64,000 nt of DNA from an uncultured bacterium (GTDB lineage: Bacteria; Bacillota; Clostridia; Oscillospirales; Oscillospiraceae). Below the pieces are notes generated by a model. The model did no database searches, was not told the origin of the DNA, and saw only the letters and a list, made by a program, of their open reading frames with translations. A program made the position numbers and the translations under genes. Shown here piece by piece: positions 23,954-50,091 of this stretch; positions within the stretch are counted from its first letter, which is position 1; every line of letters begins with the position of its first letter. The stretch covers positions 1-64,000 of the forward strand of contig CAOKLO010000003.1 of NCBI GenBank assembly GCA_948469375.1, written 5' to 3'.

Positions 23954-23965
23954 AAAGATTCCTCC

Positions 23966-26383: not shown

Positions 26384-26405
26384 TAAAATCCCAACCTCCT
26401 TTTTC

Positions 26406-28337: not shown

Positions 28338-28350
28338 TTGCCTCACCTAC

Positions 28351-29225: not shown

Positions 29226-30257
29226 TTAAATCCCCGACAGCGCTTCTTCAAATTTTGGCAGCCACCACTCCCGATAGCCGGCCTTTGTCGGATGGATGTT
29301 GTCTGCCATATAGAGCGCCCGTTCTTCCTCGCTGATGTCGTTGAACGCCTGGTCACGATATAGGTCAATGATGGTCACGCCCCATTTTTCCGCGAGCTCC
29401 TCCAGCGCCTGCACCATCGTTTCATAGTTTTCGTCATCCATGGGCGGGTTGGTGTAGAAATACACGGGGCAGTCCCATGTGCCTTTGGCCGTGGCGATGA
29501 TGTACTCCATTGCCCCAAAGGTGGTGGCGGTGTCAAAGGCGGCGGCATCGCGCACATCCGCCGGCGTCACAGCGCCAAAACCATCAGGGAAACCCTTATC
29601 GTTTGTGGACAGCTGGCAGATGAACGCGTCCACATGGCCTGCCCTTTCATCAGAGGCCAGATACTGATCCAGACGGCTTACGTAGCTGCTGTTGGCCCGG
29701 TCCGCCAGCGTGGTGCCGGACACAGCCTCCTTGATACACTGGGCTCCATGCTTTTTTGCCAGGAAGTCGGCCATAGATTCCTGACCGGAACTGGCCCCTT
29801 CTGTGACAGAGGAGCCCAGCCAGAAGATGACCTTTCCCGCCAGGGGGCTACCGGCGGTTTCCCGTGTGCCTGCGACAGAGTATTCCTCCCGGTTTCCCTT
29901 CAGCGTGACCTTGATGTTCTGCTCCACGGTTTCCCCTCCATAGACAAATTTAGCAAACAGGGACGTCCGCGTCAGCGGTTGGTCTACGATGATCCCCTCA
30001 TAGGCCACGTTTTCCAGCATTGAGCCGTCTTTCAACTTGGCGTTGATGACAACCCCGGCCGGATCAAAGGTCTCGCCCTCCTCATACTCCAGCTTCTCCG
30101 GCGGTTGCACGATGGTGAGCTTCCAGACCTGAGCGACACTCGCCTCGCTCCCGCCAGCAGGCGCGTCTGAGCTTTTACCGGCCCCTGCTCCACAGGCACT
30201 CAAAAAGAGTGCCGCCATCAGTAGCAGTGTTCCAAGCCGCATCGTTTTCTTGTTCAT
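29226..30257 (-). CDS. Lipoprotein with Ig-like domain and SGNH esterase
   Basis: A 343-residue secreted lipoprotein. The signal peptide ends in the lipobox LSAC (about residue 21). Residues ~45-120 resemble a bacterial Ig-like domain (KLEYEEGETFDPAGVVI). The rest is an SGNH hydrolase: FWLGSSVTEG with the serine, LSTNDKG as block III and DNIHPTKAG as the Asp-His pair. The ATG at 30257 follows GGAGGG by 10 bases. It should work at the cell surface, removing acyl groups from glycans or glycosides before uptake. It is the first gene of the 22373-30257 gene run. Confidence 0.88.
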   Translation of the reverse strand: MNKKTMRLGTLLLMAALFLSACGAGAGKSSDAPAGGSEASVAQVWKLTIVQPPEKLEYEEGETFDPAGVVINAKLKDGSMLENVAYEGIIVDQPLTRTSLFAKFVYGGETVEQNIKVTLKGNREEYSVAGTRETAGSPLAGKVIFWLGSSVTEGASSGQESMADFLAKKHGAQCIKEAVSGTTLADRANSSYVSRLDQYLASDERAGHVDAFICQLSTNDKGFPDGFGAVTPADVRDAAAFDTATTFGAMEYIIATAKGTWDCPVYFYTNPPMDDENYETMVQALEELAEKWGVTIIDLYRDQAFNDISEEERALYMADNIHPTKAGYREWWLPKFEEALSGI

Positions 30258-30300
30258 CTGAGATCTACCCTCCTGTTTTGAGCTACCGGACAAACCGATC

Positions 30301-30326
30301 AAAAGTCGGCTCACCGACAGCTTTTT
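30301..30326 (-). terminator. Weak hairpin terminator downstream of GH3 copy 1
   Basis: On the minus strand AAAAAGCTGTCGG-TGAG-CCGACTTTT forms a 5-bp GC stem with A/T flanks. It lies in the 88 bases between the membrane GH3 gene and the SGNH lipoprotein gene and may partly separate the two transcripts. Confidence 0.5.
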
Positions 30327-33383: not shown

Positions 33384-36341
33384 TCAGCCGTTCTTTGCTT
33401 TCTTTTTGCTGCGGATCAGCATGAACACACTGCCCGCGGTGAGCACTGCCATCACGCCGGTGGCGGCATAGATGGCCACCTGCCACCAGGGGGTGATGGC
33501 CCGCACGGTGGCGTTGCCCACGTTCATGGCGTGGCTGTGGGTGATGGAGTAGGCGATGTGCTTGACGGCGGTCTGCACGGCGGAGACGATGGCGGGGTCC
33601 TTATCCAGCCCGTCCAGGGTCTCCATGCCCATGCTGTAGCCGTCCCACAGATCCTGGCCCGCCAGCACGCCCAGGCGGTAGTCCATGTAGGCCGCCATGA
33701 CGGAGCAGTCGGTGATGGCAGCGCCCTTCATGCCCCACTCGTCCCGGAGGACGCCGGTCATCAGGCCGTGGTGGGCCCCGCTCCAGGTAACGCCCAGGCG
33801 GTTGAAGGAGCTCATCACGCCCATGCCGCCGCCCCGGGCCACGCTGCCCTCAAAGCCCTCCAGGTACAGCTCGCGGATGGCCTGCTCGTTGGACCAGGTG
33901 GAGATGCCGTAGCGCCCCTCCTCCTGGTCGTTGAGGGCAAAGTGCTTGGTGAACACGTACACACCCCGATCCTGGATGGCGGCCACCTCCACGGCGGCTA
34001 CCCGGCCAGACAGCCAGCCGTCCTCGGAGTAGTACTCGAAATTGCGCCCGCAGTATGGGGTGCGGTGGATATTGGCCCCGGGGCCGTAGATGCCGGAGAA
34101 CACGGTGCCGGATTCGTCGGTGGCGTGGAGGAAGTCCTCGCCGATGCACTTGCCCATGTTCTCAATGAGCTCCAGGTTGAAGGTGGCGGCCATCACATCC
34201 TCAGAGGTGTAGGCCATGGCGGAGGAGCCGCCCATCAGGCTCTTGGTAAAGCCCTGGGGGCCGTTCTCATCGTTGGTGCCGGGCAGGCTGATGGAGGGCA
34301 CCGGCTGGGTGAGGTGGAAGCCGTTGTAGATCAGGTTGGTCATCTCGCTGTAGGGGATCTGGCTGACCAGGTCGTTCCAGGAGGGGTCGTCCGCCTCGGT
34401 CTCGGCAAACATACTGGCGCTGAGTGTACCGGACACACCTATCTTGGGCATCGTGGCATCAGACCAATAGCGATTCTTGGCGGTTTCCACCATGGCCGCG
34501 CGGTCCGCCTCGTTGTGGGACAGGCCGTCCTTCCACATCTGGTCGGTGATCTTCAGCGAGACGGTGGAGGGCCAGGTGCCCGTCCAGTCGCTTCGGCTCA
34601 GGTAGGTGATATCCTGGCCGTCGTCGCCCTCGTACTTGTTCAGGTCGGCATCCTCAAACAGGTTGGTGATGGGCTTGCCGGTGACGGAGGACACGGCGTA
34701 GGTGGTCTTGTCAAAGGTGGGGTTGTTCCACTTGGACGCCAGCCCGGCGTCCCCGGCGGCGGTCATGCGGCCCTGATCCGCGCCCTTGGCGGCCAGGATG
34801 TTGTTGACGGCGTCATGGGCGTCCTTGCCCACGGTGAAGTAGTAGTCGCCGTCCTCCAGGATGTAGGTCTTGGCGTTCATGTGGTCGTAGGAGGTCAGAT
34901 CCTCCTTCTCCACGGTAATGGTGAAGTGCTCGGTGTCCCCGGCGGCGATGAACTTCTTGTCGAAGCCGCACAGCTCCACCGCGGCCTTCTCCACCTGGTT
35001 GTCGATATCATACTGGGTATAGGGGGACTGGAAGTAGATCTGCACGGTGTGCTTGCCGTCCACCGCGCCGGTGTTCTTCACGTCCACCTCCACCTGGAAG
35101 GTATTGCCCTGCTCCTGAACGGAGAAGTTGGAGTACTCGAAGGTTGTGTAGCTCAGGCCGTAGCCGAAGGGGAAGGCCACGTCGGCGCTGTAGTCATACT
35201 CCCCGGCGTTGCCCTGGCCCAGCACATAGTCCTCATACCGGGTCTCATAGTAGCGGTAACCCACGTAGATGCCCTCCTGGTACACCACGTAGTCCCGGTT
35301 GCACTTGCCGATGCCAGGGTCGGTGTTGTTCTGGGCGGTAGCCACGTCGTAATCCGCGCCGTTAGTATAGGGGTACGCGCCAAAGTTCTGCATGGCGGGG
35401 GAGGAGTGGTTGTCCTTGAGGAAGGTGTCCACGATGCGGCCGGAGGGGTTCACCGTACCAGCCAGGATATCGGCCACGGCGGTGATGCCGGTCATGCCCA
35501 CATCGCCGATCCACAGCACCGCGTCAATGCCGTAGTCGTCCACAAAGTCCAGCTGGAGGGTGTTGGAGGAGTTGAGCAGCACCACGATCTTCTTGAAGGT
35601 ACCCTGCTCCTTGAGCTGCTCCAGGTTCTCCAGCATCTCAATCTCCTCTTTGCACAGGCGCAGGTAATCGCCGTCGGTCATATAGGCTTCCAGCTCGGGC
35701 AGGCCACTGGGCAGGTCGGCGCCCTCGCCGCCGGAGCGGGCCAGCACCACCAGGGCCACGTCACCGTACTGGGACCAGGTGCCCTTCAGGGCATCGGAAT
35801 ACTCGCTCCAGGGCACCTCGTTGATGCGGTACTGGCCCTGGTTGCCGCCGGTGGTGTCGGCGTTCACCCGCTTGTACCCCGCCCCGGCGTAGAATTTCCA
35901 CTGTTCCGGGTTGACGGAGTTTTCACCGAATGCCCCATCCAGCGCCGCCTTGAGGGAGATGGCATCGTCCGCGGACACCTGGCCGGAGCCGGTACCGCCG
36001 TACAGCAGGTTGAAGCTGGACTGGGAGAAGGGGGTAAACTTGGTGCCCGCGGCCAGGGGCAGGGTGTTGTCCCGGTTGACCAGCAGGGCCGCGCCCTCCG
36101 CCTCGATGTCATGGCACAGCTGCTTTTCAAAGGCCACAAGGTCGTCTTCGTTCTCGTAATCGCTCCAGAAATAGATCTTGGCATCGGGGTCAGGGATGAC
36201 TTCCTGGGTCTTAGCCCCCAGGGCCACGTTGATGGCAGTGGCAAATGCGTTGGTGACAGGGATGGCCACGATGCACACCACCAGTAGCAGGGCGGTGATT
36301 ACTGTGAGGATGGTCCACAGCAGGCTGCCTTTTTTCTTCAT
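33384..36341 (-). CDS. Membrane-anchored GH3 with reversed domain order (copy 2)
   Basis: A 985-residue tandem paralogue of copy 1 with the same permuted layout: signal-anchor helix, sandwich domain, FnIII, barrel, C-terminal helix, basic tail. The nucleophile is D878 in AAITDCS; the barrel shows IYGPGANIHRTPYCGRNFEYYSED and TKHFALNDQEEGRYG. Near-identity of some segments (VYQEGIYVGYRYYETRYEDYVLGQG) with copy 1 indicates a recent duplication. The ATG at 36341 has GGAG 8 bases ahead; an adjacent TTG is an alternative. A hairpin terminator lies between it and copy 1. Confidence 0.9.
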   Translation of the reverse strand: MKKKGSLLWTILTVITALLLVVCIVAIPVTNAFATAINVALGAKTQEVIPDPDAKIYFWSDYENEDDLVAFEKQLCHDIEAEGAALLVNRDNTLPLAAGTKFTPFSQSSFNLLYGGTGSGQVSADDAISLKAALDGAFGENSVNPEQWKFYAGAGYKRVNADTTGGNQGQYRINEVPWSEYSDALKGTWSQYGDVALVVLARSGGEGADLPSGLPELEAYMTDGDYLRLCKEEIEMLENLEQLKEQGTFKKIVVLLNSSNTLQLDFVDDYGIDAVLWIGDVGMTGITAVADILAGTVNPSGRIVDTFLKDNHSSPAMQNFGAYPYTNGADYDVATAQNNTDPGIGKCNRDYVVYQEGIYVGYRYYETRYEDYVLGQGNAGEYDYSADVAFPFGYGLSYTTFEYSNFSVQEQGNTFQVEVDVKNTGAVDGKHTVQIYFQSPYTQYDIDNQVEKAAVELCGFDKKFIAAGDTEHFTITVEKEDLTSYDHMNAKTYILEDGDYYFTVGKDAHDAVNNILAAKGADQGRMTAAGDAGLASKWNNPTFDKTTYAVSSVTGKPITNLFEDADLNKYEGDDGQDITYLSRSDWTGTWPSTVSLKITDQMWKDGLSHNEADRAAMVETAKNRYWSDATMPKIGVSGTLSASMFAETEADDPSWNDLVSQIPYSEMTNLIYNGFHLTQPVPSISLPGTNDENGPQGFTKSLMGGSSAMAYTSEDVMAATFNLELIENMGKCIGEDFLHATDESGTVFSGIYGPGANIHRTPYCGRNFEYYSEDGWLSGRVAAVEVAAIQDRGVYVFTKHFALNDQEEGRYGISTWSNEQAIRELYLEGFEGSVARGGGMGVMSSFNRLGVTWSGAHHGLMTGVLRDEWGMKGAAITDCSVMAAYMDYRLGVLAGQDLWDGYSMGMETLDGLDKDPAIVSAVQTAVKHIAYSITHSHAMNVGNATVRAITPWWQVAIYAATGVMAVLTAGSVFMLIRSKKKAKNG

Positions 36342-36360
36342 CAATAACGCTCCTTTTCTA

Positions 36361-36433: not shown

Positions 36434-37564
36434 TTACCCGGCCTTGGTGGCGGTGCTGCCGTCGATGGTCCAGGTTTCGCCGCCCATGGCGGTCCAGATC
36501 TGGCCAAACGCGCCCAGCACGTCCTCTCCGGGGGCGGTAACGGTCAGAGTGTCGCCGTCCAGCACGTAGGTGAAGCCGTCCCGCTCCATGCCGTACTCGG
36601 GGTACTTGACCTTCATGTTGGTGTCGTCCAGCAGCACCAGCACCAGGCCGCCGGCCTCGTAGGAGGCGATACCCTCCTCAGCGGGTTCCTCGCCGCCGTT
36701 GGCGGGAGCCTCGGGGGCGGACAGGGCGGAGATGTCCTCGCAGACGAAGGTGTAGGTAACCGCGTTGCCGTCGCCCAGATTGCGCTCGGCGGTGAAAGTG
36801 GCCTTATTGCCGTCCATGGTCACATCCACGGCCTCGCCGCCCAGGGTGATGGCGATGGCCCCGTCGGCCAGGGTCCAGGTGCCGTCGGCAAACTTGTCGT
36901 AGCCGGCGTAAACCAGCAGGGTGCCGTCGGCCTGGAGGTAGGCGGTGCCGTTGTTGTCCGCGTCGGTGAAGGCGCCCACGTGCTCGGGGGCGGTGAAGTC
37001 CTGCTTATAGGCCTGGATAAAGGCGTTGGCGTCGGCGTAGGTCTGGCCCTCCTTGCCCTCCATGGGGGCCACGCGGGTGTAGGACATACCGGGCACCACG
37101 GGGAAGGTCAGATCGAAGGAGTACACACCGGCCACGTCATAGGCGTAAGCGGTCTGGGCGTTGGACTCAGTGCCCGCCTCGTCCACATAGGCCAGCTTGA
37201 TCTGCAGGCAGGCCACGCCGTCCTTTTCAACTTCCTTCCAGGTGCCGGACATATAGCTGGCGGTGAAGGTGGGGTTGGTGGCGGCGTCGGAGGCGTCGAA
37301 GTTGGCGAACATATACTTGTCCGCAACGGCGGTGCCGTCCTCGTTCAGGTTCAGCAGGAAGGCGGCGTTCAGCATGGAAGCGTTCTCGCCGGACTCCTCA
37401 TAGGTGCCCCAGAACTGGTAGGTTTTGCTGCCGCCCTCGGTGGGCTGGGAGGGCTCCTCGGAGGGGGCCTGGGAATTGCTGCTGGGGCTGCCGCCGCAGG
37501 CGGCCAGCAGGGAGACCAGCATCAGCGCCGACAGGACGGCGGCCAAGAGTTTCTTCATTTTCAT
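36434..37564 (-). CDS. Lipoprotein of unknown function with beta-rich repeats
   Basis: A 376-residue lipoprotein. The signal peptide ends at LLAAC, followed by a Ser/Pro/Glu linker. The mature part has repeated short beta modules of the form 'DG-T-L-V' with tryptophan (GTWTLADGAIAI, DGDTLTVTAPGED, GGETWTIDG), separated by an acidic Pro/Glu linker near residue 290. GGAGG precedes the ATG. No catalytic motif is seen. Its place among surface GH3 enzymes suggests glycan binding or scaffolding, but this is inference. It is followed by a strong terminator. Confidence 0.75.
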   Translation of the reverse strand: MKMKKLLAAVLSALMLVSLLAACGGSPSSNSQAPSEEPSQPTEGGSKTYQFWGTYEESGENASMLNAAFLLNLNEDGTAVADKYMFANFDASDAATNPTFTASYMSGTWKEVEKDGVACLQIKLAYVDEAGTESNAQTAYAYDVAGVYSFDLTFPVVPGMSYTRVAPMEGKEGQTYADANAFIQAYKQDFTAPEHVGAFTDADNNGTAYLQADGTLLVYAGYDKFADGTWTLADGAIAITLGGEAVDVTMDGNKATFTAERNLGDGNAVTYTFVCEDISALSAPEAPANGGEEPAEEGIASYEAGGLVLVLLDDTNMKVKYPEYGMERDGFTYVLDGDTLTVTAPGEDVLGAFGQIWTAMGGETWTIDGSTATKAG

Positions 37565-37598
37565 AACGTTTTCCTCCAATAGTCTTTGTGTATTTCCC

Positions 37599-37627
37599 GT
37601 ATCCCCAGGCAACCTGCCCAGGGATAC
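37599..37627. other. Intercistronic hairpin
   Basis: GTATCCC-ca-GGCA-acc-TGCC-ca-GGGATAC pairs as a 7+4 bp stem with a symmetric internal loop, between the 4-TM protein and lipoprotein genes. There is no T tract, so it may be an mRNA-stability element and not a terminator. Confidence 0.5.
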
Positions 37628-37640: not shown

Positions 37641-38048
37641 TTAGTTGCGGTGGGCCATAAAGGCGGCGATTACATTGAGAACCGCGGCCGCGCCGAACAC
37701 CACGGAAAAGGCAATGGCCAAGGTGGGGTTGCCCCCGAAGAAGGGCACGCCGGTGAGTACATCGGCCAGGGGGTAAGCGGTTTCCACCAGATGGTTGGCC
37801 AGGGCCACAGAGAAGCAGGCCCCGCCCAGGATGGGGGTGAAGGGGAGCCGCAACGTCTCACCCGCCAGGGTAATGACCGCACCGCCCAGCGCCAGTCCAA
37901 AGGTAAGCCAGGAGAACACCCGGTCCACCGTTTCGGCGGCGGTGGCCATGTAGATGATCACATAAGCTGCAGCCCCTACCAGGGCAATAACTGCGGCAGC
38001 CGCGCTCAACCAAAAGCCCGGTTTCGCGTCTTGGAACAAGCGCTTCAT
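37641..38048 (-). CDS. Small four-helix membrane protein
   Basis: A 135-residue protein with four hydrophobic stretches (about 12-34, 42-60, 68-88 and 108-130). No recognised domain. The start MKRLFQDAKPGFW at 38048 is preceded by AAGGGGGG and overlaps the end of the GH3 gene region by design of the operon (GH3 stop at 38050). It sits between a membrane-anchored GH3 and a lipoprotein gene, so it may be a membrane partner of this island. Function unknown. Confidence 0.75.
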   Translation of the reverse strand: MKRLFQDAKPGFWLSAAAAVIALVGAAAYVIIYMATAAETVDRVFSWLTFGLALGGAVITLAGETLRLPFTPILGGACFSVALANHLVETAYPLADVLTGVPFFGGNPTLAIAFSVVFGAAAVLNVIAAFMAHRN

Positions 38049-38049
38049 C

Positions 38050-40932
38050 TTATTTGCCCCCCTTCCTGGACTTGATCTCGGACAGGACATACAGCGCCGC
38101 GGTGCCTGCGGTCAGCACGCCGATGGCGACGTTCAGCCCGGTGAGGGCGGGCTTCCACCAGGGGGTGTAGTTCTGGACGGTCTCCGTCTTGCTCAAACCG
38201 TTTACCAGGTTGGAGCGGCTCATGGTATACAGGTAGTACTTGGCCACCTCCCGGAGCTTGCCGCAGATGAAGCCGTCCTTGTCCTTCACCAGCAGGTTGG
38301 ATGCCTCAGGCACGCGGCCGGGGTCGTTGTTGAACTGGCAGGTGCCCGCCCGGATGGCGTCGGCGGTGCCCATGTAGCTGGCGGAGTCCTTGGAGCTGTC
38401 GGTCATGTTGATGCCGGTGAAGCCCCACTCATCCCGCAGCACGGTGGTCATGGTCTCGTAGTCGCTGGCGGTGGGCACGCAGCCGATGCGGTTGTAGGCG
38501 GTCATGGTGGCCATGCTGTGCCCGGCCTGGAGCCCGCCCTCGAAGCCCCGCAGGGGGCCCTCGCGGTAGGTCTGCTCGGTCATGAAGGTGGCTACGCCGT
38601 GTCGGTTGGTCTCCTGGTCGTTGCCGCAGAAGTGCTTAAAGGTGCCCACACAGCCGCCCTCCGCCATAGCCTTGGTCTGAACCTCGCTGCAGATGTAGCT
38701 CAGGTTGGCATCCTCGGAGTAGTACTCAAAGTTACGGCCGGAATAGGGGGTGCGGTGGATGTTGCCGCCGGGGGAGTAGATCTGGCGGAAGCCGATCCAG
38801 TAGCTCTCCTCCGCGAAGAACTGGCCGCGCTGCTCCAGCATCTCCTTGCTGAAGGTAGAGGCGGCCGCCATCTCCGCGTTGAACAGCACGCCGCCCTGGT
38901 GCCCGTCCGGGCCGTCGCCGCCGGCATAGGCGGGGAGGTCAATGCTTTCGATCATATCCAGGCCCATCTTGTCGCCGGTGATCTGGGCCAGCTCGGTGGG
39001 GGTGAGCTGGTCGATGAACTCCTCCCACTTGGGGTCGTCGAAGGCCGTGTCCTTCATCTCAATGAAGGAGATGCCGTTGTCCTGCTTGTACTGGTAGGTG
39101 GAGATGTCCGGGGCGTCGGAGGGCTTTTCGTACTGGAAGTTCTCCATCAGGTCCTGGATCTCCGGGGTGGCGGTGAGGCTTGCCACCGTGTCGGGGAAGG
39201 TGTTCCAGTCGGAACGGGTCAGGTAGGTCACGGATCCGGGGATGAAGTAGTTGATATCCCGGTCCTCGAAGTGGTTGGACACCACCTCGCCGGTATAGGG
39301 GGAGACGGCGTAGGTCGTGTTGTCCAGGCTGGCCAGCTCGTCCTTGTGGGCCTTGGCGGCATCGCCCTCCACAGGATTGCCCTCGGCGTCGAACATCCCA
39401 GTGACGCCCCGGGCGGCCAGCACGTTGTTCAGCGCGTCGTGGGCGTCGCTGCCGATGGCAAAGAAGTACTCGCCGGGGTCGAACACGTAGCAGCCTGTCT
39501 TGGAGCTGTCCGCCCCGTTGGCGGCATTGCTGTCATAGGTGGCGAAGATGTAGTCAGAGAACTCCAGGGTCACGGTCTCGCTCTCCCCCGCCGCCAGGGC
39601 GGAGGTCTTGGCGAAGTCGGCCAGCTGGATGGCGCTCTTTTCCGCCTGCCCCGCCTCGTAGGGGAGCTGGACGTAGAGCTGCACCACGTCCTTGCTCTTG
39701 CCGGAGTAATTGTCCGCGCCGTTGTTGGTCACCTTCACCTGGGCGGTGACGGTGTGGGTGGACTTGTCCCAGTCCACGCTCAGCAGCTCCTGGGTGAAAC
39801 CGGCGTAGGACTGCCCCGCGCCGAAGGTGAACACCATCTCGTCGGCATAGTTCCACGCGCCGCCCTTGCTGGCGTATACGCCTTTGGGGCCGTTGGCGTT
39901 GTTGACGCCCAGCACCTGGTCCTGGTAGCGGGTCTCATAGTACTTGTAGCCCACATAGATACCCTCGGCGTACACCAGGTACTTGTTCTTATACTGGCCG
40001 GTGAGGTTGTCGAAGGTGAAGTCGCCGGCGTTCTGCATGGCGGCGGAGCTGAGGGAGTCGGCGGCGTAGGTGATGACGTTGCGGCCGGAGGGGTCGGCCT
40101 GGCCGCCCAGCACCCGGGCCACGCCGGTCATGCCGTAGTTGCCGGGGTAGCCGATCCACAAACAGGCGTCCACGCCGTAGTCCGCCAGCCAGCCCAGATC
40201 CATGGCGTAGCCGGAGTTGAGCACCACGATGATCTTGCCGAACTTGCCGGAGTTTTTTATCATGTTGAGGGTGTCGATCTCCTCCTGGTGGAGGGACAGC
40301 TCGGGCACGCCCGCGGGGCCCTCCTGCCAGTCGCCCTGGAGGCCGTGGTTCAGGTCGCCCTCCTCGCCGCCGAAGCGGCTCATGACGTAGATGGCGGCGT
40401 CGTTGTAGCCGGACGCGTAGGAGCCCTCCGTCCCGGCGTAGGCGCTGGCGGGGATCTCGCCGATGAGACCGGTCTTGGTGCGGGCGCCGTTGGCGGCCAC
40501 GATGGCGTTGTACACCGTCTCGTTGACCTGGAATCCCTCCTCCTTCATGGCGTCATAGAGGTTGATGCCCTCGTTGGGGGGGCCGCCGGATCCGCCGTGA
40601 TACACCGGGGTGGCGGCGGCAAAGCCGAACAGTGTCACGCTGGCGTTGGGGGCCAGGGGCAGCGCCCCGTTCTCATTACGCAGCAGCACGCTGCCCTCCT
40701 CCTGGCTCTCGATGAGGTGATCCTTCAGGGCGGCGCGCATCTCGTCCATGGAGGCATAGCTGGAGGGGTAGTAATTGGTGTCGCCGGTGACCTGGACGGC
40801 AGGGGGAAGGGTTCCCAGGAACAGGTTCACGTCCCCTTCCCGGGTGAAGGCCAAGCTCTGGCCAAACATGGTCAGGGAGAACACCAGCACCAGAAGGGTG
40901 CACAGTCCCCGCCATATGTATGTTTTCTTCAT
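38050..40932 (-). CDS. Membrane-anchored GH3 with reversed domain order (copy 3)
   Basis: A 960-residue, more divergent member of the same permuted GH3 group. It has a signal-anchor segment (about 5-27), a sandwich domain with VLLRNENGALPLAP, an FnIII-like domain after TFGAGQSYAGFTQ, then the barrel with IYSPGGNIHRTPYSGRNFEYYSED and FKHFCGNDQE. The nucleophile is about D845 in INMTDSS. The C-terminal helix is followed by KSRKGGK. GGGAGG lies 7 bases before the ATG. It probably cleaves a different linkage from copies 1 and 2. Confidence 0.9.
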   Translation of the reverse strand: MKKTYIWRGLCTLLVLVFSLTMFGQSLAFTREGDVNLFLGTLPPAVQVTGDTNYYPSSYASMDEMRAALKDHLIESQEEGSVLLRNENGALPLAPNASVTLFGFAAATPVYHGGSGGPPNEGINLYDAMKEEGFQVNETVYNAIVAANGARTKTGLIGEIPASAYAGTEGSYASGYNDAAIYVMSRFGGEEGDLNHGLQGDWQEGPAGVPELSLHQEEIDTLNMIKNSGKFGKIIVVLNSGYAMDLGWLADYGVDACLWIGYPGNYGMTGVARVLGGQADPSGRNVITYAADSLSSAAMQNAGDFTFDNLTGQYKNKYLVYAEGIYVGYKYYETRYQDQVLGVNNANGPKGVYASKGGAWNYADEMVFTFGAGQSYAGFTQELLSVDWDKSTHTVTAQVKVTNNGADNYSGKSKDVVQLYVQLPYEAGQAEKSAIQLADFAKTSALAAGESETVTLEFSDYIFATYDSNAANGADSSKTGCYVFDPGEYFFAIGSDAHDALNNVLAARGVTGMFDAEGNPVEGDAAKAHKDELASLDNTTYAVSPYTGEVVSNHFEDRDINYFIPGSVTYLTRSDWNTFPDTVASLTATPEIQDLMENFQYEKPSDAPDISTYQYKQDNGISFIEMKDTAFDDPKWEEFIDQLTPTELAQITGDKMGLDMIESIDLPAYAGGDGPDGHQGGVLFNAEMAAASTFSKEMLEQRGQFFAEESYWIGFRQIYSPGGNIHRTPYSGRNFEYYSEDANLSYICSEVQTKAMAEGGCVGTFKHFCGNDQETNRHGVATFMTEQTYREGPLRGFEGGLQAGHSMATMTAYNRIGCVPTASDYETMTTVLRDEWGFTGINMTDSSKDSASYMGTADAIRAGTCQFNNDPGRVPEASNLLVKDKDGFICGKLREVAKYYLYTMSRSNLVNGLSKTETVQNYTPWWKPALTGLNVAIGVLTAGTAALYVLSEIKSRKGGK

Positions 40933-40975
40933 AAGCGTTCCTCCCAATCAGGTTTTGGTCTGTGGGAAAGGGGAT

Positions 40976-41614
40976 TTAGCCGGCGAAGTCAGCGGTATAG
41001 TCGAAGGAGCTGGTCTTGACGTTGACCTGCACGGAGGTCTCGGGGAACGCCACGCTCTCCAGGAACTGCTGGGCGGTCCAGGGCTCGGCGTTCTCATCCA
41101 CGATGGGGGCGCCTGTGTTGGGGTCAGTCTGGGCGGGGATCACGGCCTTGCCCATGGCGTCGCTCCAGTTGTCGGTGTCCACCCAGTAGAGCTGGTCGAA
41201 GCTGCGCACCACGCGGGTGGGGGCAGCCAGGGTCACGTCCAGCAGATCCTCGTCCAGATCGTTCACCTGGGAGGTGTAGGTGCCGTAGAACTTGGTGATG
41301 GAGTTCTCCCGCTCGTTGCCCTTGGCGTCGTTGGTGCTCTCGGCCAGCTCCAGGGCGGAGAAGGTGGAGGAGGAGAGCACCAGGCAGTAGGTGTTGTTAT
41401 CCATCAGGGTGATCTCCTGCTGGGTGAAGGTGGTGAGGTAATAGTTGTACTGGGGGCGCATATTCTGATAGCTCAGGTTGGCGGGGCTGAGGTAGACGCC
41501 GGTGACCTTACCGCTGGCGCTGCTCCCGCCGCCACCTCCGCCGTTGCAGGCGGCCAGAGACAGGGCCATCGCCCCGGCCAGGAACAGGGTAACCAGTTTC
41601 ATGTGCTTTTTCAT
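40976..41614 (-). CDS. Lipoprotein of unknown function, first gene of surface GH3 cluster
   Basis: A 212-residue lipoprotein. The lipobox LAAC (about residue 23) is followed by a polyglycine linker. The mature domain (about 35-212) has no recognised motif; the segment FYGTYTSQVNDLD and the C-terminal TSSFDYTADF are beta-rich. GAGGAGG precedes the ATG. It is the first gene after the LytTR-type direct repeats, divergent from the response regulator. It might be a substrate- or signal-binding partner of the sensor kinase, but that is speculation. Confidence 0.78.
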   Translation of the reverse strand: MKKHMKLVTLFLAGAMALSLAACNGGGGGGSSASGKVTGVYLSPANLSYQNMRPQYNYYLTTFTQQEITLMDNNTYCLVLSSSTFSALELAESTNDAKGNERENSITKFYGTYTSQVNDLDEDLLDVTLAAPTRVVRSFDQLYWVDTDNWSDAMGKAVIPAQTDPNTGAPIVDENAEPWTAQQFLESVAFPETSVQVNVKTSSFDYTADFAG

Positions 41615-41667
41615 TGAGATATCCTCCTCTTATATTTGTCAGGGGCCTTCCCCCTTTTCGCACCCCC

Positions 41668-41696
41668 AATTTATTCGATGTGCCCAAAGTTTTCAA
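41668..41696 (-). promoter_or_regulatory. Promoter of the surface GH3 cluster
   Basis: On the minus strand a -35 TTGAAA (41696-41691), a 17-base spacer and a -10 TAAATT (41673-41668) precede the lipoprotein gene. The proximal LytTR-type repeat ends 9 bases upstream of the -35, as expected for an activator. Confidence 0.6.
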
Positions 41697-41705
41697 TGGG
41701 AACCG

Positions 41706-41758
41706 CGTAACCTTTGTCTCTGGCCGCATAACCTTACAAATGCCGGCGGCCCAACCTT
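41706..41758 (-). promoter_or_regulatory. LytTR-type direct repeats (three half-sites)
   Basis: Read on the minus strand, three related 9-mers occur: AAGGTTGGG (41758-41750), AAGGTTATG (41735-41727) and AAGGTTACG (41714-41706). The last two have 12 bases between them (21-bp period), the classic spacing of LytTR-domain binding sites. The outer one overlaps the -35 of the response-regulator promoter, suggesting autoregulation. The same pair occurs upstream of the rhamnosidase gene. Confidence 0.65.
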
Positions 41759-41785
41759 GACTTTCCTTGTTAAAATTGCTATATT
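41757..41785 (+). promoter_or_regulatory. Promoter of the LytTR response regulator
   Basis: TTGACT (41757-41762), 17 bases, TATATT (41780-41785): a near-consensus vegetative promoter reading into the response regulator, whose start is 26 bases further on after GGAGG. Confidence 0.7.
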
Positions 41786-41811
41786 AAATAGGCGAAAGGA
41801 GGCGGGCAGAC

Positions 41812-42522
41812 ATGATTAACATCGCTATCGTAGAGGACAACCGGGAGCAGGCCGCGGCGCTGGAAAACCATATCAAAACCTACGCCTCCGAGCACAAATT
41901 GTCTGTCTCCGTCTCGATCTTCTATGAACCTATCACGTTTTTGGAGAAATACTCCCCGTTCCACATCGTGTATATGGACATCATGATGCCCATGCTCAAC
42001 GGCATGGACGCGGCCAAGCTTCTGCGGGAGAAGGACGAAAAGGTGATCCTCATTTTCGTCACCACCATGCGCCAGTACGCCATCCAGGGCTATGAGGTGG
42101 CCGCCTCCGATTTCATTGTCAAGCCGGTGGCCTATCCGGAGTTCGCGCTGAAATTCACCAAGGTGCTGGCCAGGCTGGAGCACGTGATGCCCCCCGACGT
42201 GCTCATCCGCACCGACACCAGCTTTGTGCGTCTCTCGCCCCGTGATATCCGCTATGTGGAGGTCAAGGGACACCACTGCGTCTATCACACCACCAGCGGG
42301 GAATACCGCCAGTACCAGACCATGAAAAGCGCCGAGTCCGCCCTGATAGAGCAGGGCTTTGTCCGCTGCAACAGCTTCCTGCTGGTCAACCTGGCCCATG
42401 TGGACCGCATCGACGGCATGAATGTGATCGTGGGCGGGCAACCGCTCCAGATCAGCCATCCAAAACGGAAAGCATTTACCGACGCTTTTGTCCGTTTTAT
42501 GGAGACACAACGCTATGAATGA
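41812..42522 (+). CDS. LytTR-family response regulator
   Basis: A 236-residue regulator: CheY-like receiver (1-120) with phospho-acceptor D56 in YMDIMMPML and the KPV lysine segment, then a LytTR DNA-binding domain (about 135-235; YVEVKGHHCVYHTTSG, FVRCNSFLLVNLAHVDRI). GGAGG precedes the ATG. It overlaps its partner kinase gene by 8 bases. LytTR proteins bind pairs of 9-bp direct repeats about 21 bp apart; such pairs lie upstream of this gene and the rhamnosidase gene. Confidence 0.95.
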   Translation: MINIAIVEDNREQAAALENHIKTYASEHKLSVSVSIFYEPITFLEKYSPFHIVYMDIMMPMLNGMDAAKLLREKDEKVILIFVTTMRQYAIQGYEVAASDFIVKPVAYPEFALKFTKVLARLEHVMPPDVLIRTDTSFVRLSPRDIRYVEVKGHHCVYHTTSGEYRQYQTMKSAESALIEQGFVRCNSFLLVNLAHVDRIDGMNVIVGGQPLQISHPKRKAFTDAFVRFMETQRYE

Positions 42523-43873
42523 ATTGATTGCGGCCTTTACCACGCCCTACACCATGCAGAGCGTCAACCTGATGCTGACCTACTGGGAGTGTTATATCTG
42601 CATTGCCCTGTTTGCCCGCAGGTTTGAACGGCGGGATTTTTTCTTCGTCCGAATCGCCCTCACCCTGCTGGAGGGGATGGTAGTCTGCTACCTCTTGGCC
42701 ATCTGGTATACGGAGACGGGTTCCCTCCTGGTACGGGTGCTGTGCTACTCTGCCATCACCGTGCTGAACTTTACCGCCCTCGTGTTCTGTTGGAAGTACG
42801 ATATTCAAGAAATGCTGCTGGCCTTCTGCTCCGGCATAGCGGCCTATCAATTTACCAATAAGCTCTATCCCCTGCTGCAAAACCTGCGGGGGATCAACGA
42901 CCGGGAGACGCTGGCATTGCTCCACTCCGATCCAGAGATATCGAATCTGGACTGGGCCATCTTTTTTGGCTTCCATCTGCTGTCCATTGTGTTGCTGGCC
43001 GCGCTGTTTACGCCAAAAAATCGGTTGGTTCACAACCGGCGCACCACACGCAATGTCATTGTCCTGTCCATTGCCACGGTGACGATGGTAAATATCCTGA
43101 TTTGTGTCTCCCGGGTGTACGAAGGGGAAAGCCCCATGCTCAATGTTGTGACAAAGATCCTCTATGTAGGCCTCAGCTTCACCATCCTGACGATCTGCGC
43201 GGGCATCTTTTCCCAAAGTGAGCAGGAGGAGCAGATCGGTATCCTCCACCAGCTTTGGCGGCAGGATCGGGCGCAGTTTGAATCCGTCAAGGCCAACATG
43301 GATGTCATCAACATGAAGTGCCATGACCTCAAGCACATTCTGGACAAGATCGAGGACAAGCTCACCGAAGAGGAGGCCGCCTCCCTGCGGGAGGCCATCC
43401 AGTTCTACGACGCCAACATCAAGACCGGCAACGAGGTGCTGGATGTGGTCCTGTGCGAAAAGGCAATGACCTGTCAAAAAAACGGCATTTCCTTTTCCTG
43501 CATGGCTGACGGCGGCAAGCTGGATTTTCTCACACCAGTGCAGACCTACTCCCTGTTTGGTAACATCATTGATAACGCAGTCGAGGCCGTGAAACCGCTT
43601 CCTTTGGAAGACCGGGTGATCTCCCTCTCCTGCCGCGAGGAGGAGGACGTGCTGGTTATTGAGGAGTCCAACTACTTCCAGGGCGACTTGGAACTGGCCC
43701 ATGGCCTGCCCGTCACCAGCAAGGGAGACAGCTCCCATCACGGCTTCGGCACGAAAAGCATCCAATATATCGCGGCGCAGTACGGCGGTGCGATGGATAT
43801 CAAAGTGGTGGACAATATGTTCTTCCTCACGGTTCGCTTCCCCCTTGGCCGAAACAGGGATAAAACCGCATAA
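42515..43873 (+). CDS. GHKL sensor histidine kinase (AgrC/LytS-like)
   Basis: A 452-residue kinase with about six membrane spans in residues 20-235 and no obvious extracytoplasmic sensor domain. The dimerisation helix has CHDLKH (H270 or H274 as phospho-site). The GHKL ATPase follows: NIIDNAVEAV (N box) and HHGFGTKSI (G box). The ATG at 42515 overlaps the regulator stop. Members of this type usually sense peptides, but here the neighbours are glycosidases and lipoproteins, so the signal may be a sugar or membrane partner. Confidence 0.93.
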   Translation: MNELIAAFTTPYTMQSVNLMLTYWECYICIALFARRFERRDFFFVRIALTLLEGMVVCYLLAIWYTETGSLLVRVLCYSAITVLNFTALVFCWKYDIQEMLLAFCSGIAAYQFTNKLYPLLQNLRGINDRETLALLHSDPEISNLDWAIFFGFHLLSIVLLAALFTPKNRLVHNRRTTRNVIVLSIATVTMVNILICVSRVYEGESPMLNVVTKILYVGLSFTILTICAGIFSQSEQEEQIGILHQLWRQDRAQFESVKANMDVINMKCHDLKHILDKIEDKLTEEEAASLREAIQFYDANIKTGNEVLDVVLCEKAMTCQKNGISFSCMADGGKLDFLTPVQTYSLFGNIIDNAVEAVKPLPLEDRVISLSCREEEDVLVIEESNYFQGDLELAHGLPVTSKGDSSHHGFGTKSIQYIAAQYGGAMDIKVVDNMFFLTVRFPLGRNRDKTA

Positions 43874-43877
43874 TAGG

Positions 43878-43911
43878 AAAGCCGGAACCACTCAGCGGTC
43901 CCGGCTTTTTT
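43878..43911. terminator. Bidirectional rho-independent terminator
   Basis: AAAGCCGGaACC-actcagc-GGTcCCGGCTTTTTT forms a GC-rich stem flanked by A and T tracts, so it can end transcription from both the kinase gene (plus) and the rhamnosidase gene (minus), which converge here. Confidence 0.85.
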
Positions 43912-43917
43912 GTGCTC

Positions 43918-46335
43918 CTATCGGATGGTGATGACATACTCCCCGGCCCGGGCGATGGTTACCCTCCCGCCGTCCACAGAGCAGTCCCCGCCAGTAACGG
44001 TGATGTCCATGCCCATACTCTCTGGCACAATCACCGTCCCCACGGCGTCGATGGCATTCACGGTGATCGTCCGGCCTTCCGCTGTAGTTTCCAGCTTGAC
44101 ACCGATCTCCCCCTTGGGAGTCCAGACGGTGCAGTCAAAGCTGCCCAGCGTACCGCAGGGAGCAATCTCATATTTCTCAAACCCCGCCTCGGTGGGGCGG
44201 ATCCCGGCCGCGTACTTGGACAGGATGTACAGCGGCGCGGCAGTCCAGCCGTGGTTGACGGTGCCGGTCTCCCCGTCGAAGGTCTCCCACAGAGTGTCAT
44301 ACTCATCACTGAGCATAGGGGCATAGCGGTCTCGCATCCGCTGGAGGGCCAAGTCGGTTCGGCCCATCACGCACAGGGCCTCCAGCACGTACTTCTCGAT
44401 AAAGGGGCTGGCCTGGTAGGTACTCATAATGACATCAGAGATCAGAGCATAGTCTTCCTCCCCCGCCAAACCGGACAGAGCCAGCATGGCGTTGGCGCGG
44501 TCATCCACGTACTTGCTGTCCGAACTCTTGAAGCCCTCCTCCGTGTAGTAGGCGGCCCGCCAGTTTTCCTTCATGGAGTCCATCCGCTCGGTGAGGAACT
44601 CCGTCCCCTCGGTGATGCCCAGGTCGTCGGCTATGGACTTAGTGACGGTGAGGGCGTAGTAGTAGATGCCCGCCTGAAGCAGCCTGGTGTCGATGCAGTC
44701 CCCCCAGTCGTTCCACGTCCAGGAGCCGTCCCGGTACACCGGCAGGCCGTTTTCCATCTCCACCATCTTCAGGTAGTTGAGGAAAGCTGTGCAATAGGCC
44801 GCCGCCGTTTCCCTATCCCCGGAGTGGAGCCAGTAGTGGTACACGCTGGTCATAAAGATAAGGCTCTGGTTGGGGATCTCCTGGGGCTTCGCACTGGGGG
44901 CGCGGCTGGGGATGGCCCCGTCCGTCCGCGTCCAGGCCACGCAGGCCAGGATGGCCTTTTTCGTCATGTCCAGCCCCGCCTGGTCATAGCTGTACAGCGC
45001 CGCGTCGATTTGGTTGGAGGCATCCCCCATGTAGGGACCCCGTTCCCGCTCGGGGCAGTCCATGTATGTATCCCGCATACAGATTGCCAGGGTGTTGAGT
45101 GACTCCTGCCACAGCTGGTCCAGCCCGGCATCCGAGGAGACGAAGGCCCCCGCCCACTCCCCGTTGAAGCCGCTGGCGCGGTAGCCCAGCCGGGTAAAGG
45201 TCACCCCGGCCTCCGCCTCGATGATGAGCTTGGAACCGCTACGCCAGGGATAATTCTCATAGTGCTGGATCCCCTCGGCGGTGACATAGGTGTCCTTGAA
45301 GTTGGGCATATCCTGCTTGTCGGTGTAGGTGTCGGTGTAGAAGGTCAACTTTTTGCCCGCCGGAGCCTCCAACTCAAAATAGGGAGTGAATTGGATGTTG
45401 CCCGGCAGTTCCAGCACCAGGGTTGTATCTTGGGCCAACGCCTTGCCTACATAGTCCGTGGAGTTGGCAAAGTCAGTAATTTCTTCAAATTTGACGGGTG
45501 CGATCATGGCGGAGTAGAGGTCGCCGAAGGGCAAGTCTCCGGCCTTGGAGATCGGCGTGGCGTTCTCCCACTGGCTGTCATCATAGCCCTCGCTCATAAA
45601 CTCACCCAGGTCGTCCCGTGCATCAAAGTAGACGTTACGTTCCGCCAGCATGGAGGACTGGGTATAGCCTGGGTAATCCGCCCCGGCGGTGACCCGGTTC
45701 TTGTAGCCGTTATGCCGGGCGGCTTTCCAGGAGCTATCCGAGCAGACGGCCACGCCCCCGGCATCCAGTTCAAAGATCAGCCCCGCCTGGGTGTACTCGT
45801 CCCCCTCCTCGTCCAGAAGGACGGGGACAATGGAACCGTCCCCGGAGCGGCCGTTGAAAGCCACCAGCAGTGCGATGGTGTTCTCCCCCTGCTTCAGATT
45901 GGTGAGCTCCACTGTATCATAGTAGCTGTCGTAAGGAGTGGGGCCCCGCTTCAGCGAACCGTCCAGCACGGCCAGCTCCCCGTTGACCCACAGCACGTAC
46001 TTGTCTACAGCAGAAATAAACGCGGTAGCAGAGGGGACGGCCTGATCCAGGTTGAAGGTCTTGCGGAAAGCCACATAGCTGTCCTCTGCGCAGCCCTCAG
46101 TCCAGATCCAATTGGCGGTCCAGTCTGTCTTTTTATACCTTTCAATGCTATCCAAATACATAAGATCCGAACGGTCTGCCATGCCCCGATCCGGGACAAC
46201 GTTTTCTACCTCCACTGAGGCAGAAGGAGCGGGTATAATGTTATCCTCACTGTTACATCCGGCCAGCAACGAGAACATAGAGGCAGCGCAGATCAGCAAC
46301 GCAGTACCTCGTGTAAGCCATTCCCTTTTTATCAT
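43918..46335 (-). CDS. GH78-like alpha-L-rhamnosidase lipoprotein
   Basis: An 805-residue surface lipoprotein (lipobox LLAGC near residue 27). Two beta-sandwich domains (about 60-320) precede an (alpha/alpha)6 barrel. The GH78 signature CPERERGPYMGDASNQ (about 425-440) contains the acidic residues used for catalysis, and WTWNDWGD and NHGWTAAPLY follow. A C-terminal beta domain ends the protein. GAGGAGG precedes the ATG. It should remove terminal L-rhamnose from rhamnosides outside the cell, complementing the membrane GH3 enzymes. LytTR-type repeats upstream put it under the neighbouring two-component system. Confidence 0.88.
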   Translation of the reverse strand: MIKREWLTRGTALLICAASMFSLLAGCNSEDNIIPAPSASVEVENVVPDRGMADRSDLMYLDSIERYKKTDWTANWIWTEGCAEDSYVAFRKTFNLDQAVPSATAFISAVDKYVLWVNGELAVLDGSLKRGPTPYDSYYDTVELTNLKQGENTIALLVAFNGRSGDGSIVPVLLDEEGDEYTQAGLIFELDAGGVAVCSDSSWKAARHNGYKNRVTAGADYPGYTQSSMLAERNVYFDARDDLGEFMSEGYDDSQWENATPISKAGDLPFGDLYSAMIAPVKFEEITDFANSTDYVGKALAQDTTLVLELPGNIQFTPYFELEAPAGKKLTFYTDTYTDKQDMPNFKDTYVTAEGIQHYENYPWRSGSKLIIEAEAGVTFTRLGYRASGFNGEWAGAFVSSDAGLDQLWQESLNTLAICMRDTYMDCPERERGPYMGDASNQIDAALYSYDQAGLDMTKKAILACVAWTRTDGAIPSRAPSAKPQEIPNQSLIFMTSVYHYWLHSGDRETAAAYCTAFLNYLKMVEMENGLPVYRDGSWTWNDWGDCIDTRLLQAGIYYYALTVTKSIADDLGITEGTEFLTERMDSMKENWRAAYYTEEGFKSSDSKYVDDRANAMLALSGLAGEEDYALISDVIMSTYQASPFIEKYVLEALCVMGRTDLALQRMRDRYAPMLSDEYDTLWETFDGETGTVNHGWTAAPLYILSKYAAGIRPTEAGFEKYEIAPCGTLGSFDCTVWTPKGEIGVKLETTAEGRTITVNAIDAVGTVIVPESMGMDITVTGGDCSVDGGRVTIARAGEYVITIR

Positions 46336-46399
46336 ATACTCTCCTCCTCAAACCGGCCTGCGCTATTTTGCAGAAATATTCGCAGCCTATTCTGCAACA

Positions 46400-46428
46400 A
46401 TTATACATATTGTCATATGATAAGAAAG
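46400..46428 (-). promoter_or_regulatory. Rhamnosidase promoter
   Basis: A perfect -10 TATAAT (46405-46400, minus strand) with only a weak -35 (CTTTCT at 46428-46423, 17-base spacer; TTTCTT with 16) points to an activator-dependent promoter. The 5' leader to the ATG is about 58 bases. Confidence 0.6.
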
Positions 46429-46436
46429 GGCAACCG

Positions 46437-46466
46437 CACAGCCTTGCCATTTTACGGCATAACCTT
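46437..46466 (-). promoter_or_regulatory. LytTR-type direct repeat pair upstream of rhamnosidase
   Basis: Minus strand: AAGGTTATG (46466-46458), 12 bases, AAGGCTGTG (46445-46437), then CGGTTGCC and the -35 region. This copies the layout in front of the GH3 cluster (AAGGTTATG, 12 bases, AAGGTTACG, CGGTTCCC, -35), including the downstream CGGTTsCC. Confidence 0.65.
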
Positions 46467-46560: not shown

Positions 46561-46633
46561 GTTTAATCGCTTAAATTCGGTGCTTTGGGGGGAGCTCATC
46601 ATATTACTTCATAGGGAGATTTTTTCTTCATGC

Positions 46634-46665
46634 AACTACCGGCACCCCAACAGGTGCCGGTAGTT
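46634..46665. other. Perfect 13-bp hairpin in intergenic region
   Basis: AACTACCGGCACC and its exact complement flank a 6-base loop CCAACA. There is no T tract on either side. It lies 60 bases past the DUF6273 stop. The rest of 46336-46724 holds only the minus-strand terminator, the LytTR-type repeats and the rhamnosidase promoter; no gene is seen. Confidence 0.6.
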
Positions 46666-46724
46666 GAAAATTCTTTAATTATTCACTGTCCACCTGACTG
46701 TGCAGTTCTCAATACAATTCCCAG

Positions 46725-47867: not shown

Positions 47868-47878
47868 GACAATCCCTC

Positions 47879-49942: not shown

Positions 49943-50019
49943 TTTAGCCCGGTGTAAGCAGACACGCAAAAGGGGCCAAAATCCGCCACAGAGTATACCA
50001 GCCCTCTAGTAAGGGAATA

Positions 50020-50039
50020 CACAGCGCTGCGGCGCTGTG
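50020..50039. other. Hairpin (8-bp stem) between permease and ATPase genes
   Basis: CACAGCGC-TGCG-GCGCTGTG is a perfect inverted repeat. It is immediately followed by a larger hairpin. Together they occupy most of the 274-base gap, where no gene is seen. Confidence 0.6.
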
Positions 50040-50041
50040 AC

Positions 50042-50091
50042 ACCTCGCAAAAGCGGTCAAATATAGGGATATTCAACCGCTTTTGCGAGGT
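50042..50091. repeat. Long inverted repeat (16-bp arms)
   Basis: ACCTCGCAAAAGCGGT (50042-50057) and its exact complement (50076-50091) enclose an 18-base loop that can itself pair AATAT with ATATT. The plus-strand side continues into TTTTATTG. It may be a terminator-like structure, an RNA-processing site or a mobile-repeat unit. Confidence 0.65.

Follow-up and report, generated by a model that had tools for sequence, protein, structure and literature searches.

The stretch of DNA analysed here (the window, 64,000 nucleotides) carries, on its plus strand, the genes of a response regulator and a sensor kinase, and on both sides of them, on the minus strand, genes for predicted surface glycosidases and lipoproteins (Table 1). 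The host bacterium is related to animal-gut species. Both domains of the regulator score above the cut-off (52 bits for the receiver domain and 54.4 bits for the LytTR domain), and the adjacent gene, which probably starts at 42515, encodes a GHKL membrane kinase with the conserved His and Asn residues, as in LytTR two-component systems. H270, N350 and N354 of the kinase are invariant in 14 sequences, and Asp 56 of the receiver is invariant too.

Table 1. Coordinates of the genes, operators and promoters of the locus, numbered from the first letter of the window.
Feature	Position	Strand	Description
GH2, canonical-order GH3 and MFS transporter genes	22373..28346	-	gaps of 12-22 bp; may be the operon's distal part
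Xylose-isomerase-like protein	28351..29199	-	TIM barrel
GDSL-type lipoprotein	29226..30314	-	
GH3 enzyme a	30346..33306	-	reversed order, helix at each end; start is an ATG chosen within a longer ORF
GH3 enzyme b	33384..36344	-	reversed order, helix at each end
Lipoprotein	36434..37612	-	about 376 aa from the first ATG; without Pfam/NCBIfam family
Small membrane protein	37641..38090	-	149 aa
GH3 enzyme c	38050..40947	-	reversed domain order (C-Fn3-N), hydrophobic helix at each end
Lipoprotein	40976..41614	-	212 aa, no known family; first gene behind operator 1
Core promoter of operator 1	TTGAAA 41696-41691, TAAATT 41673-41668	-	17 nt between hexamers; promoter scoring
Operator 1	41702..41735	-	two 13-bp half-sites, AAGGTTATGCGGC-N8-AAGGTTACGCGGT, period 21 bp; faces the lipoprotein/GH3 operon
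Promoter of regulator/kinase operon	41757..41785	+	near-consensus TTGACT-N17-TATATT; promoter scoring
LytTR response regulator	41812..42522	+	236 aa; receiver (PF00072) and LytTR (PF04397)
GHKL sensor kinase	42488..43873	+	about 5 hydrophobic helices; PF14501, 70.3 bits
Rhamnosidase lipoprotein	43918..46335	-	PF17389, PF08531; predicted target of operator 2
-10 of rhamnosidase promoter	46400..46405	-	perfect TATAAT, read directly from the sequence
Operator 2	46433..46466	-	AAGGTTATGCCGT-N8-AAGGCTGTGCGGT; faces the rhamnosidase gene
Hairpin, 14 pairs	46633..46666	. (scored on +)	between gene 46725-47867 and operator 2; possible terminator

The 212-aa lipoprotein gene adjoins the regulator gene in all 14 close loci of related genomes, and the small membrane protein is encoded in 15 of the 17 loci checked, being absent from the short contigs L020 and L021. 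The reversed-order enzymes resemble the reversed-order GH3 beta-glucosidases of known structure 5k6l and 5wug in the order of the matched stretches and in the aligned MTD motif, whose Asp is the nucleophile, but differ from them in having hydrophobic helices at both ends. Beyond the rhamnosidase gene, the DUF6273 gene p46725 was considered as a regulon member in the window and dropped; there it stands behind ABC/FtsX genes (47879-50948), which occur in three of the 14 close loci (L014, L015 and L024). A 38-41% relative of p46725 does stand behind the operator in L012 and L013. An OmpR-type pair is encoded at 51089-52851.

The first-pass annotation had described two pairs of 9-bp direct repeats with 12-bp spacers, and both were found with exactly the letters and coordinates claimed: AAGGTTATG-N12-AAGGTTACG at 41735-41706, followed by CGGTTCCC, and AAGGTTATG-N12-AAGGCTGTG at 46466-46437, followed by CGGTTGCC, all on the minus strand. 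The CGGT of the CGGTTsCC that it reported after the repeats is present, but comparison of relatives indicated that it is no separate element; it is the tail of a half-site of about 13 bp, AAGGTTRYGCKGT, repeated with a period of 21 bp. A -35 position 8-9 bases further on was also proposed. This holds for operator 1, where a -35-like TTGAAA lies 9 bp past the 9-mer pair, followed by a -10-like TAAATT, in a core promoter scoring 9/12, but no recognisable -35 hexamer was seen at the matching place of operator 2. With this exception, both sites have the form expected of LytTR operators, namely paired direct repeats of about 9 bp, spaced by 11-13 bp and set closely ahead of the -35 region. Orthologues show a similar operator-promoter layout; the promoter scores in that comparison are the best of all positions and hence partly selected.

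Since the regulator and kinase genes lie on the plus strand and the operators on the minus strand, operator 1 sits in a divergent gap. When pairs of period 21 were compared in 13 regions, the best enzyme-facing pair had 0-5 mismatches of 26 and the best regulator-facing pair 7-12. No operator-like pair facing the regulator was found in any of the 13 regions (11 mismatches of 26 in the window; the nearest, in L030, had 7).

A scan of the whole draft genome (3.68 Mb, 91.6% complete, 6.24% contamination) with the 9-mer pattern, proposed earlier as a check, returned only two exact matches, and these are the two operators. There were no matches at one mismatch and nine at two, and the reversed-pattern control gave 13 when up to two were allowed; sites with two mismatches belong to the background. 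With as many as three mismatches allowed, the refined 34-bp pattern found the two operators only, with no control match and no further site near the other LytTR genes of the genome. In the 64-kb window, four matches at up to three mismatches (two exact, and one other overlapping operator 1) compare with 0.95 expected, and four were reached in 4 of 100 shuffles, so that the window by itself is weak evidence at this threshold. Across 60 genomes, 27 pattern matches against 21 control matches at up to one mismatch mean that one-mismatch matches are background as well. Exact matches, unlike these, exceed the background: two were found per genome in each of the four genomes with a 95-100% identical regulator, all in this locus, and only one among the other 56 genomes (G038).

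The operator is kept between the lipoprotein and regulator genes in 14 of the 14 loci in which regulator identity is at least 53%. Some of these are near-copies (L012-L015 with the window, and L017-L019), so the 14 represent perhaps nine lineages, and the 50 loci found in total are no census because the locus search catches only those that contain a member of a set of six short peptides. In nine diverged loci, 18 sites compare with 0.12 expected from first-order Markov sequences (60 per locus; L018 left out, overlapping pairs in L023 and L024 counted separately). Applied to ten genomes that carry related regulators, the refined pattern gave 20 sites, spread over eight of them, and none in the control; 17 are on the regulator's contig, two on possibly adjoining contigs and one is remote (G064:C45). 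Three sites had been taken as unlinked to the regulator, a number reduced to one after contig ends were compared. The rhamnosidase contig of G067 and the esterase contig of G065 end beside, and are oriented like, the missing locus genes; both may therefore be broken-off parts of the locus, and the truly remote support comes down to a single site with three mismatches.

The operators follow their target genes through different gene orders. L022 has a separate operator before each of the lipoprotein, GH3b, TIM-barrel and rhamnosidase genes, and the GH3b relative of L025 also has its own. Ten of 12 rhamnosidase copies stand behind an operator, in several gene orders; no upstream site is shown for those of L023 and L030. 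In L030 the resemblance is concentrated towards the 3' side of the half-site (5 mismatches of 26, no match at up to three). In the Paenibacillus loci L026 and L027 the motif is absent, though they share the lipoprotein, the GH3c and the small membrane protein with the window; these loci hold only an A-rich repeat, AACTAAAAA, with period 20. At paralogous LytTR loci (C74, C51, C5 and C30), seven of eight stretches before the regulator or GH3 genes lack a 10-mer repeat with at least nine matches at periods 18-25, the exception being L117, whose 2.1-kb stretch has one match of period 22. Of 18 distant loci, 14 are without any 8-of-9 repeat (periods 20-23) in the 400 bp that precede the regulator; L033, L039, L041 and L045 have some. 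Two-mismatch matches in L040 and L045 lie inside long open frames, not before the lipoprotein gene, and were taken as chance. In a midpoint-rooted tree the regulators with operators form one group, with a clade support of 93/96 that falls below the 95/80 mark; L051 (stop in range), L014, L018, L027, L043, L044, L049, L053, L054, L056 and L058-L061 were left out of it.

Taken together, the genome-wide specificity of the sites, their co-occurrence with the regulator, the conservation in 14 of 14 loci and the way operators accompany target genes back the earlier proposal that one LytTR/GHKL system governs the GH3 operon and the rhamnosidase. On these sequence grounds, we consider it probable (about 0.84) that the pair activates a small dedicated regulon consisting of the lipoprotein/membrane-GH3 operon and the rhamnosidase gene. 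For the genome at hand this means two promoters. The kinase and regulator would be made constitutively from their strong divergent promoter, which has no operator of its own, and the membrane kinase would respond to a cue from outside the cell. Once phosphorylated, the regulator would bind in pairs to the 13-bp half-sites, which are spaced by about two helical turns, and, positioned closely ahead of the -35 region, activate two weak promoters; activation is the direction suggested by the position of the operators relative to the promoters. Operator 1 would drive a long operon encoding the lipoprotein, the three membrane-anchored reversed-order GH3 enzymes, the small membrane protein, the second lipoprotein and the GDSL protein, and, judging from the short gaps, the transcript perhaps extends to the GH2, GH3 and transporter genes. 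Operator 2 would drive the surface rhamnosidase. The enzyme set looks made for work at the cell surface, where it would strip glycosides or oligosaccharides of their sugars, rhamnose included.

LytTR/GHKL systems are mostly interpreted as switches for peptide quorum sensing and virulence, and AgrA and ComE also combine a receiver-type regulator with a GHKL kinase; VirR acts on a sialidase gene. The kinase could sense a peptide pheromone, with the glycosidases as a density-controlled output. The shared agr/com architecture and full-length ComE (4cbv) as the third-best solved-structure match speak for this reading, which we nevertheless regard as unlikely. No AgrB match was found in the 91.6% complete draft genome at E ≤ 0.001, AgrB being just one route, and Pfam hints of peptide export or maturation around the pair are limited to the ABC/FtsX genes. 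The autoactivating repeats of agr-type systems were not found before the regulator operon in the 13 regions; with no operator facing the regulator, the usual positive feedback is missing. The predicted surface glycosidase targets and the half-site conserved over 13 bp further distinguish the locus from AgrA, ComE and the LytTR Regulatory Systems.

That the bound regulator instead keeps the promoters shut until a signal lifts the block is less likely still. In favour of it, AgrA represses at the bsaA promoter, from a site that lies downstream (PMC4227749). Against it, the sites here stop 9 bp upstream of the -35 without overlapping the core promoter, and the operator-2 promoter, lacking a -35, would need help. 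With 11 LytTR domains in the genome, one of the ten other LytTR proteins, or the OmpR-type pair, might read the repeats; this is improbable, as exact sites occur in genomes with this regulator, the motif stands beside its clade only, and no extra site lies near other LytTR genes at three mismatches. A non-protein reason for the repeats, such as a leader RNA or a chance duplication, can hardly be entertained given a 21-bp period that is fixed while spacer letters vary, a near-fixed distance to the -10 and repeats that precede several different genes.

The first-pass annotation considered LytTR control of glycan enzymes unusual. It is less unheard-of than that, since the neighbourhood of LytTR and GH3 genes is already published: the relevant section of PMC2914790 describes three LytTR response regulators in PUL7, 21 and 33 of Butyrivibrio proteoclasticus, each near a secreted GH3 with a C-terminal TMH. 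The present locus likewise has a LytTR response regulator near membrane-anchored GH3 enzymes; what that section reports is a neighbourhood, whereas here there is a defined motif with a lipoprotein/rhamnosidase set. LytTR Regulatory Systems, as outlined in PMC6193735, have 9-bp direct repeats that are spaced by 12 bp and placed some 10 bp ahead of the -35. The LytTR domain, the spacer and the distance from operator 1 to the -35 agree, but the repeats described there are autoregulatory and no operator precedes the regulator operon here. Gram-positive polysaccharide utilisation loci, which also unite enzymes, transporters and a regulator in one cluster, have mostly LacI and AraC regulators, with an RR[LytTR] in locus Ros-7 (PMC5320581), unlike the MFS transporters and LytTR pair found here. 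PMC5716241 lists a GH3 with a C-terminal TMH and has no LytT term, PMC12323615 contains none of the relevant terms, and where LytTR comes up in PMC5945754 and PMC10222030 the context is a different one. Against this background, the operator, the regulon and the one-way wiring seem to be new.

The sharply defined operator points to surface glycosidases here and, in relatives, also to esterases, a caution that domain content alone is a poor ground for labelling these regulators 'quorum sensing'. The same kind of GH3 stands next to dozens of related regulators in genomes of Bacillota; in ten genomes of the host's genus, at least 56 of 66 regulators of this kind have a GH3 within 8 kb (10 of 23 matching genomes, picked mostly for many regulators, and 150 of 155 GH3 matches). 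A readable operator makes regulons predictable from sequence, and the cue of the kinase is open to a reporter assay. We tentatively suggest that LytTR/GHKL pairs beside membrane-bound reversed-order GH3 enzymes may form a widespread, mostly unstudied glycoside-sensing class in Bacillota, in which the surface GH3 and the conserved lipoprotein help make or present the signal. If so, the enzyme set would be both output and sensor, and this locus would be the first of its class with a readable operator and regulon.

The first-pass annotation had claimed two minus-strand pairs of 9-bp direct repeats, 12 bp apart, one before the surface GH3 cluster and one before the rhamnosidase gene, and both are present letter for letter. 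This two-operator observation is confirmed, and in the whole 3.68-Mb assembly (143 contigs) the only exact matches to the pattern were the two pairs in the window. Allowing one mismatch gave 0 sites, and allowing two gave nine further matches elsewhere versus 13 for a reversed-pattern control, which is not above background. In aligned relatives, the conservation extends four bases beyond the 9-mer in both copies, to a half-site of approximately AAGGTTRYGCKGT with a period of 21 bp. The letters CGGTTsCC, described as following the repeats, are there, but they largely belong to the end of the second half-site. When the own genome was scanned with a refined 34-bp pattern and up to three mismatches, the two window sites were found and the control gave 0. 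The idea of one LytTR regulon is supported, although its motif had to be refined from the 9-mer to the longer half-site; with that motif, a single LytTR system would control both targets.

Features around the two operators in the window
Feature	Position	Strand	Remark
GH3a	30346-33306	-	membrane-anchored GH3
GH3b	33384-36344	-	membrane-anchored GH3
GH3c	38050-40947	-	membrane-anchored GH3
Operator 1	41702-41735	-	faces the lipoprotein/GH3 operon
LytTR response regulator	41812-42522	+	between the two operators
GHKL kinase	42488-43873	+	between the two operators
Rhamnosidase lipoprotein	43918-46335		behind operator 2
Operator 2	46433-46466	-	faces the rhamnosidase gene
Hairpin	46633-46666		separates operator 2 from the gene upstream

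Operator 1 lies in a divergent gap with the regulator and kinase on one side and a 212-aa lipoprotein on the other. The lipoprotein is followed on one strand by GH3c, a small membrane protein, a lipoprotein, GH3b, GH3a, a GDSL protein, a TIM-barrel protein, a GH2, a further GH3 and a transporter. For gene starts chosen by us, the spaces between these genes measure 1-92 bp. GH3a, GH3b and GH3c share a reversed domain order (C-Fn3-N), and both termini of each carry a hydrophobic helix; the solved structures 5k6l and 5wug match them in the same order, with the MTD motif aligned. Elsewhere in the window, a large glycan cluster (8442-26383) includes two GH2, two GH43, a polysaccharide deacetylase-like protein, a GDSL protein, three MFS_2 transporters and a GH3 of canonical order. 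The genes at 46725-52851 seem to be a module of their own and encode a DUF6273 membrane protein, an FtsX permease, an ABC ATPase and an OmpR-type two-component pair. The block at 53138-57939 resembles a phage or another mobile element; it encodes Rad52/22-like, AAA_23 and DUF6744 proteins and a CHC2 zinc-finger-like one that scored under the cut-off.

Fifty loci with a related regulator were taken from one scan over 84,980 species genomes. At regulator identities of at least 53%, the operator, with no more than 2 mismatches of 18, was found between lipoprotein and regulator in 14 of 14 loci, some of which are near-copies of each other. The remaining 36 loci gave two matches, both inside open frames and neither between lipoprotein and regulator. 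Nine diverged loci held 18 sites versus 0.12 in shuffles. Relatives of the ABC/FtsX genes were found in 3 of the 14 close loci. Loci L012, L013 and L014 are apparently contigs of genomes G002, G016 and G014. Three consecutive half-sites of period 21, making two overlapping pairs, lie upstream of the lipoprotein in two loci (L023:9884-9934 and L024:4901-4951). In two Paenibacillus loci (L026:9702-10000 and L027:9702-10000), an A-rich repeat, AACTAAAAA, of period 20 stands between lipoprotein and regulator in place of the motif, and may be an operator of its own or chance. Another pair of period 20, CTTTAGCTCA / CTTTAGTTCA, precedes a regulator of 41% identity that neighbours a GH3 cluster (L033:9600-10000).

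The genes read downstream of the operators at these loci all come from one set: the lipoprotein, GH3b, another membrane GH3, the TIM-barrel protein, the rhamnosidase and a DUF6273-like gene, which leads into the rhamnosidase. Ten of 12 rhamnosidase copies (the window, ten loci and one from another contig of the L025 genome) are behind an operator: five directly behind one in the locus, two after the DUF6273-like gene, one after a GH3, one after a GH3 and a GDSL gene, and one directly behind an operator on the other contig. The exceptions are L023, whose contig stops within the upstream gene, and L030.

The 34-bp pattern found 20 sites in eight of ten whole genomes with related regulators, 17 of them on the same contig as the regulator, and none in the control; the two genomes with no match were that of L030 and a Paenibacillus. 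A site with 3 mismatches on G067:C7 lies before a rhamnosidase with 68% identity over 777 residues, after which comes a GH3. It may belong to the regulator's locus, since C7 stops at this point, as does the contig carrying the regulator, and their orientation is the convergent one known from other loci. On G065:C168, the gene behind a site with 2 mismatches codes for a lipoprotein alpha/beta hydrolase, and the next is a GDSL gene truncated by the contig end. This contig may adjoin that of L023, which would place the L023 rhamnosidase behind an operator; an overlap of the contig ends was looked for and not found. The only remote candidate among the ten genomes is an operator-like site with 3 mismatches (G064:C45:131208-131241; L138, L141) upstream of a secreted esterase-like protein (PF00756), about 10 kb from the end of a 141-kb contig; the regulator locus lies tens of kb within a different contig.

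Promoters were compared in 13 intergenic regions between the regulator and the enzyme side. The best regulator-facing promoter matched the consensus at 10 or more of 12 bases in 13/13, while the enzyme-side promoter adjoining the operator had 8-9 in 11 regions and 11 in L030; consensus scoring listed none there in L025. The best period-21 half-site pair had 0-5 mismatches of 26 facing the enzymes versus 7-12 facing the regulator. A strong regulator-side promoter lacking an operator-like pair, opposite a weaker one with an operator, is the layout expected of a sensor that would be always on and an output that would be inducible. L030 (regulator 45%), with a variant repeat and TTGAAA-N17-TATAAT behind it, is the nearest case to a second, regulator-facing operator (7 mismatches of 26). 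The region L030:9482-9832 shows a lipoprotein-facing pair, CAAGCTACGCGGT / CAGTTTACGCGGT, and, towards the regulator, a weaker pair of period 21, possibly reflecting autoregulation in a sister lineage.

The association of LytTR regulators with GH3 enzymes is wider than the operator. Four of five regulators of this kind in the own genome are near a reversed-order GH3, and in ten genomes of the genus, picked mostly for many regulators, 56 of 66 have a GH3_C match no more than 8 kb away, versus at most 5.7 by chance. Of the 50 fetched stretches, a GH3 is present in 42 and a GHKL kinase in 46. In the regulator tree the operator is confined to one group, and it was not found at paralogous LytTR loci by a repeat search there or by the 34-bp scan of the own genome. 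Three more LytTR regulators of this genome (contigs C74, C51 and C5) lie beside reversed-order GH3 enzymes with two hydrophobic helices. They share the strand with their kinase, and comparison of upstream repeats found no operator common to the three loci.

By its sequence-testable features, the locus is of the LytTR two-component kind, but it differs in its output and in absent autoregulation. AgrB was not found in the draft genome at E<=0.001, which makes agr-type signalling less likely here, and the enzymes encoded point to a glycoside or oligosaccharide containing rhamnose as the cue. The 212-aa lipoprotein occurs in every one of the 14 close loci as well as in L030 and Paenibacillus, and had no match among Pfam, NCBIfam or PDB sequences; our guess is that it is a candidate binding partner.

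Published passages list a Roseburia locus with one LytTR regulator (PMC5320581), link a LytTR gene raised on xylan to cellulase genes (PMC5733062), and describe LytTR repeats spaced 12 bp apart that tend to lie 10 bp upstream of the -35 (PMC6193735). In Butyrivibrio, three LytTR response regulators are each noted near a secreted GH3 that has a C-terminal TMH (PMC2914790). Among the listings and passages that searches of open-licence PMC papers brought up, none described the operator or the regulon of a LytTR-GH3 system. The LytTR-GH3 neighbourhood had already been noticed earlier, and the operator here is clean enough for an immediate test.
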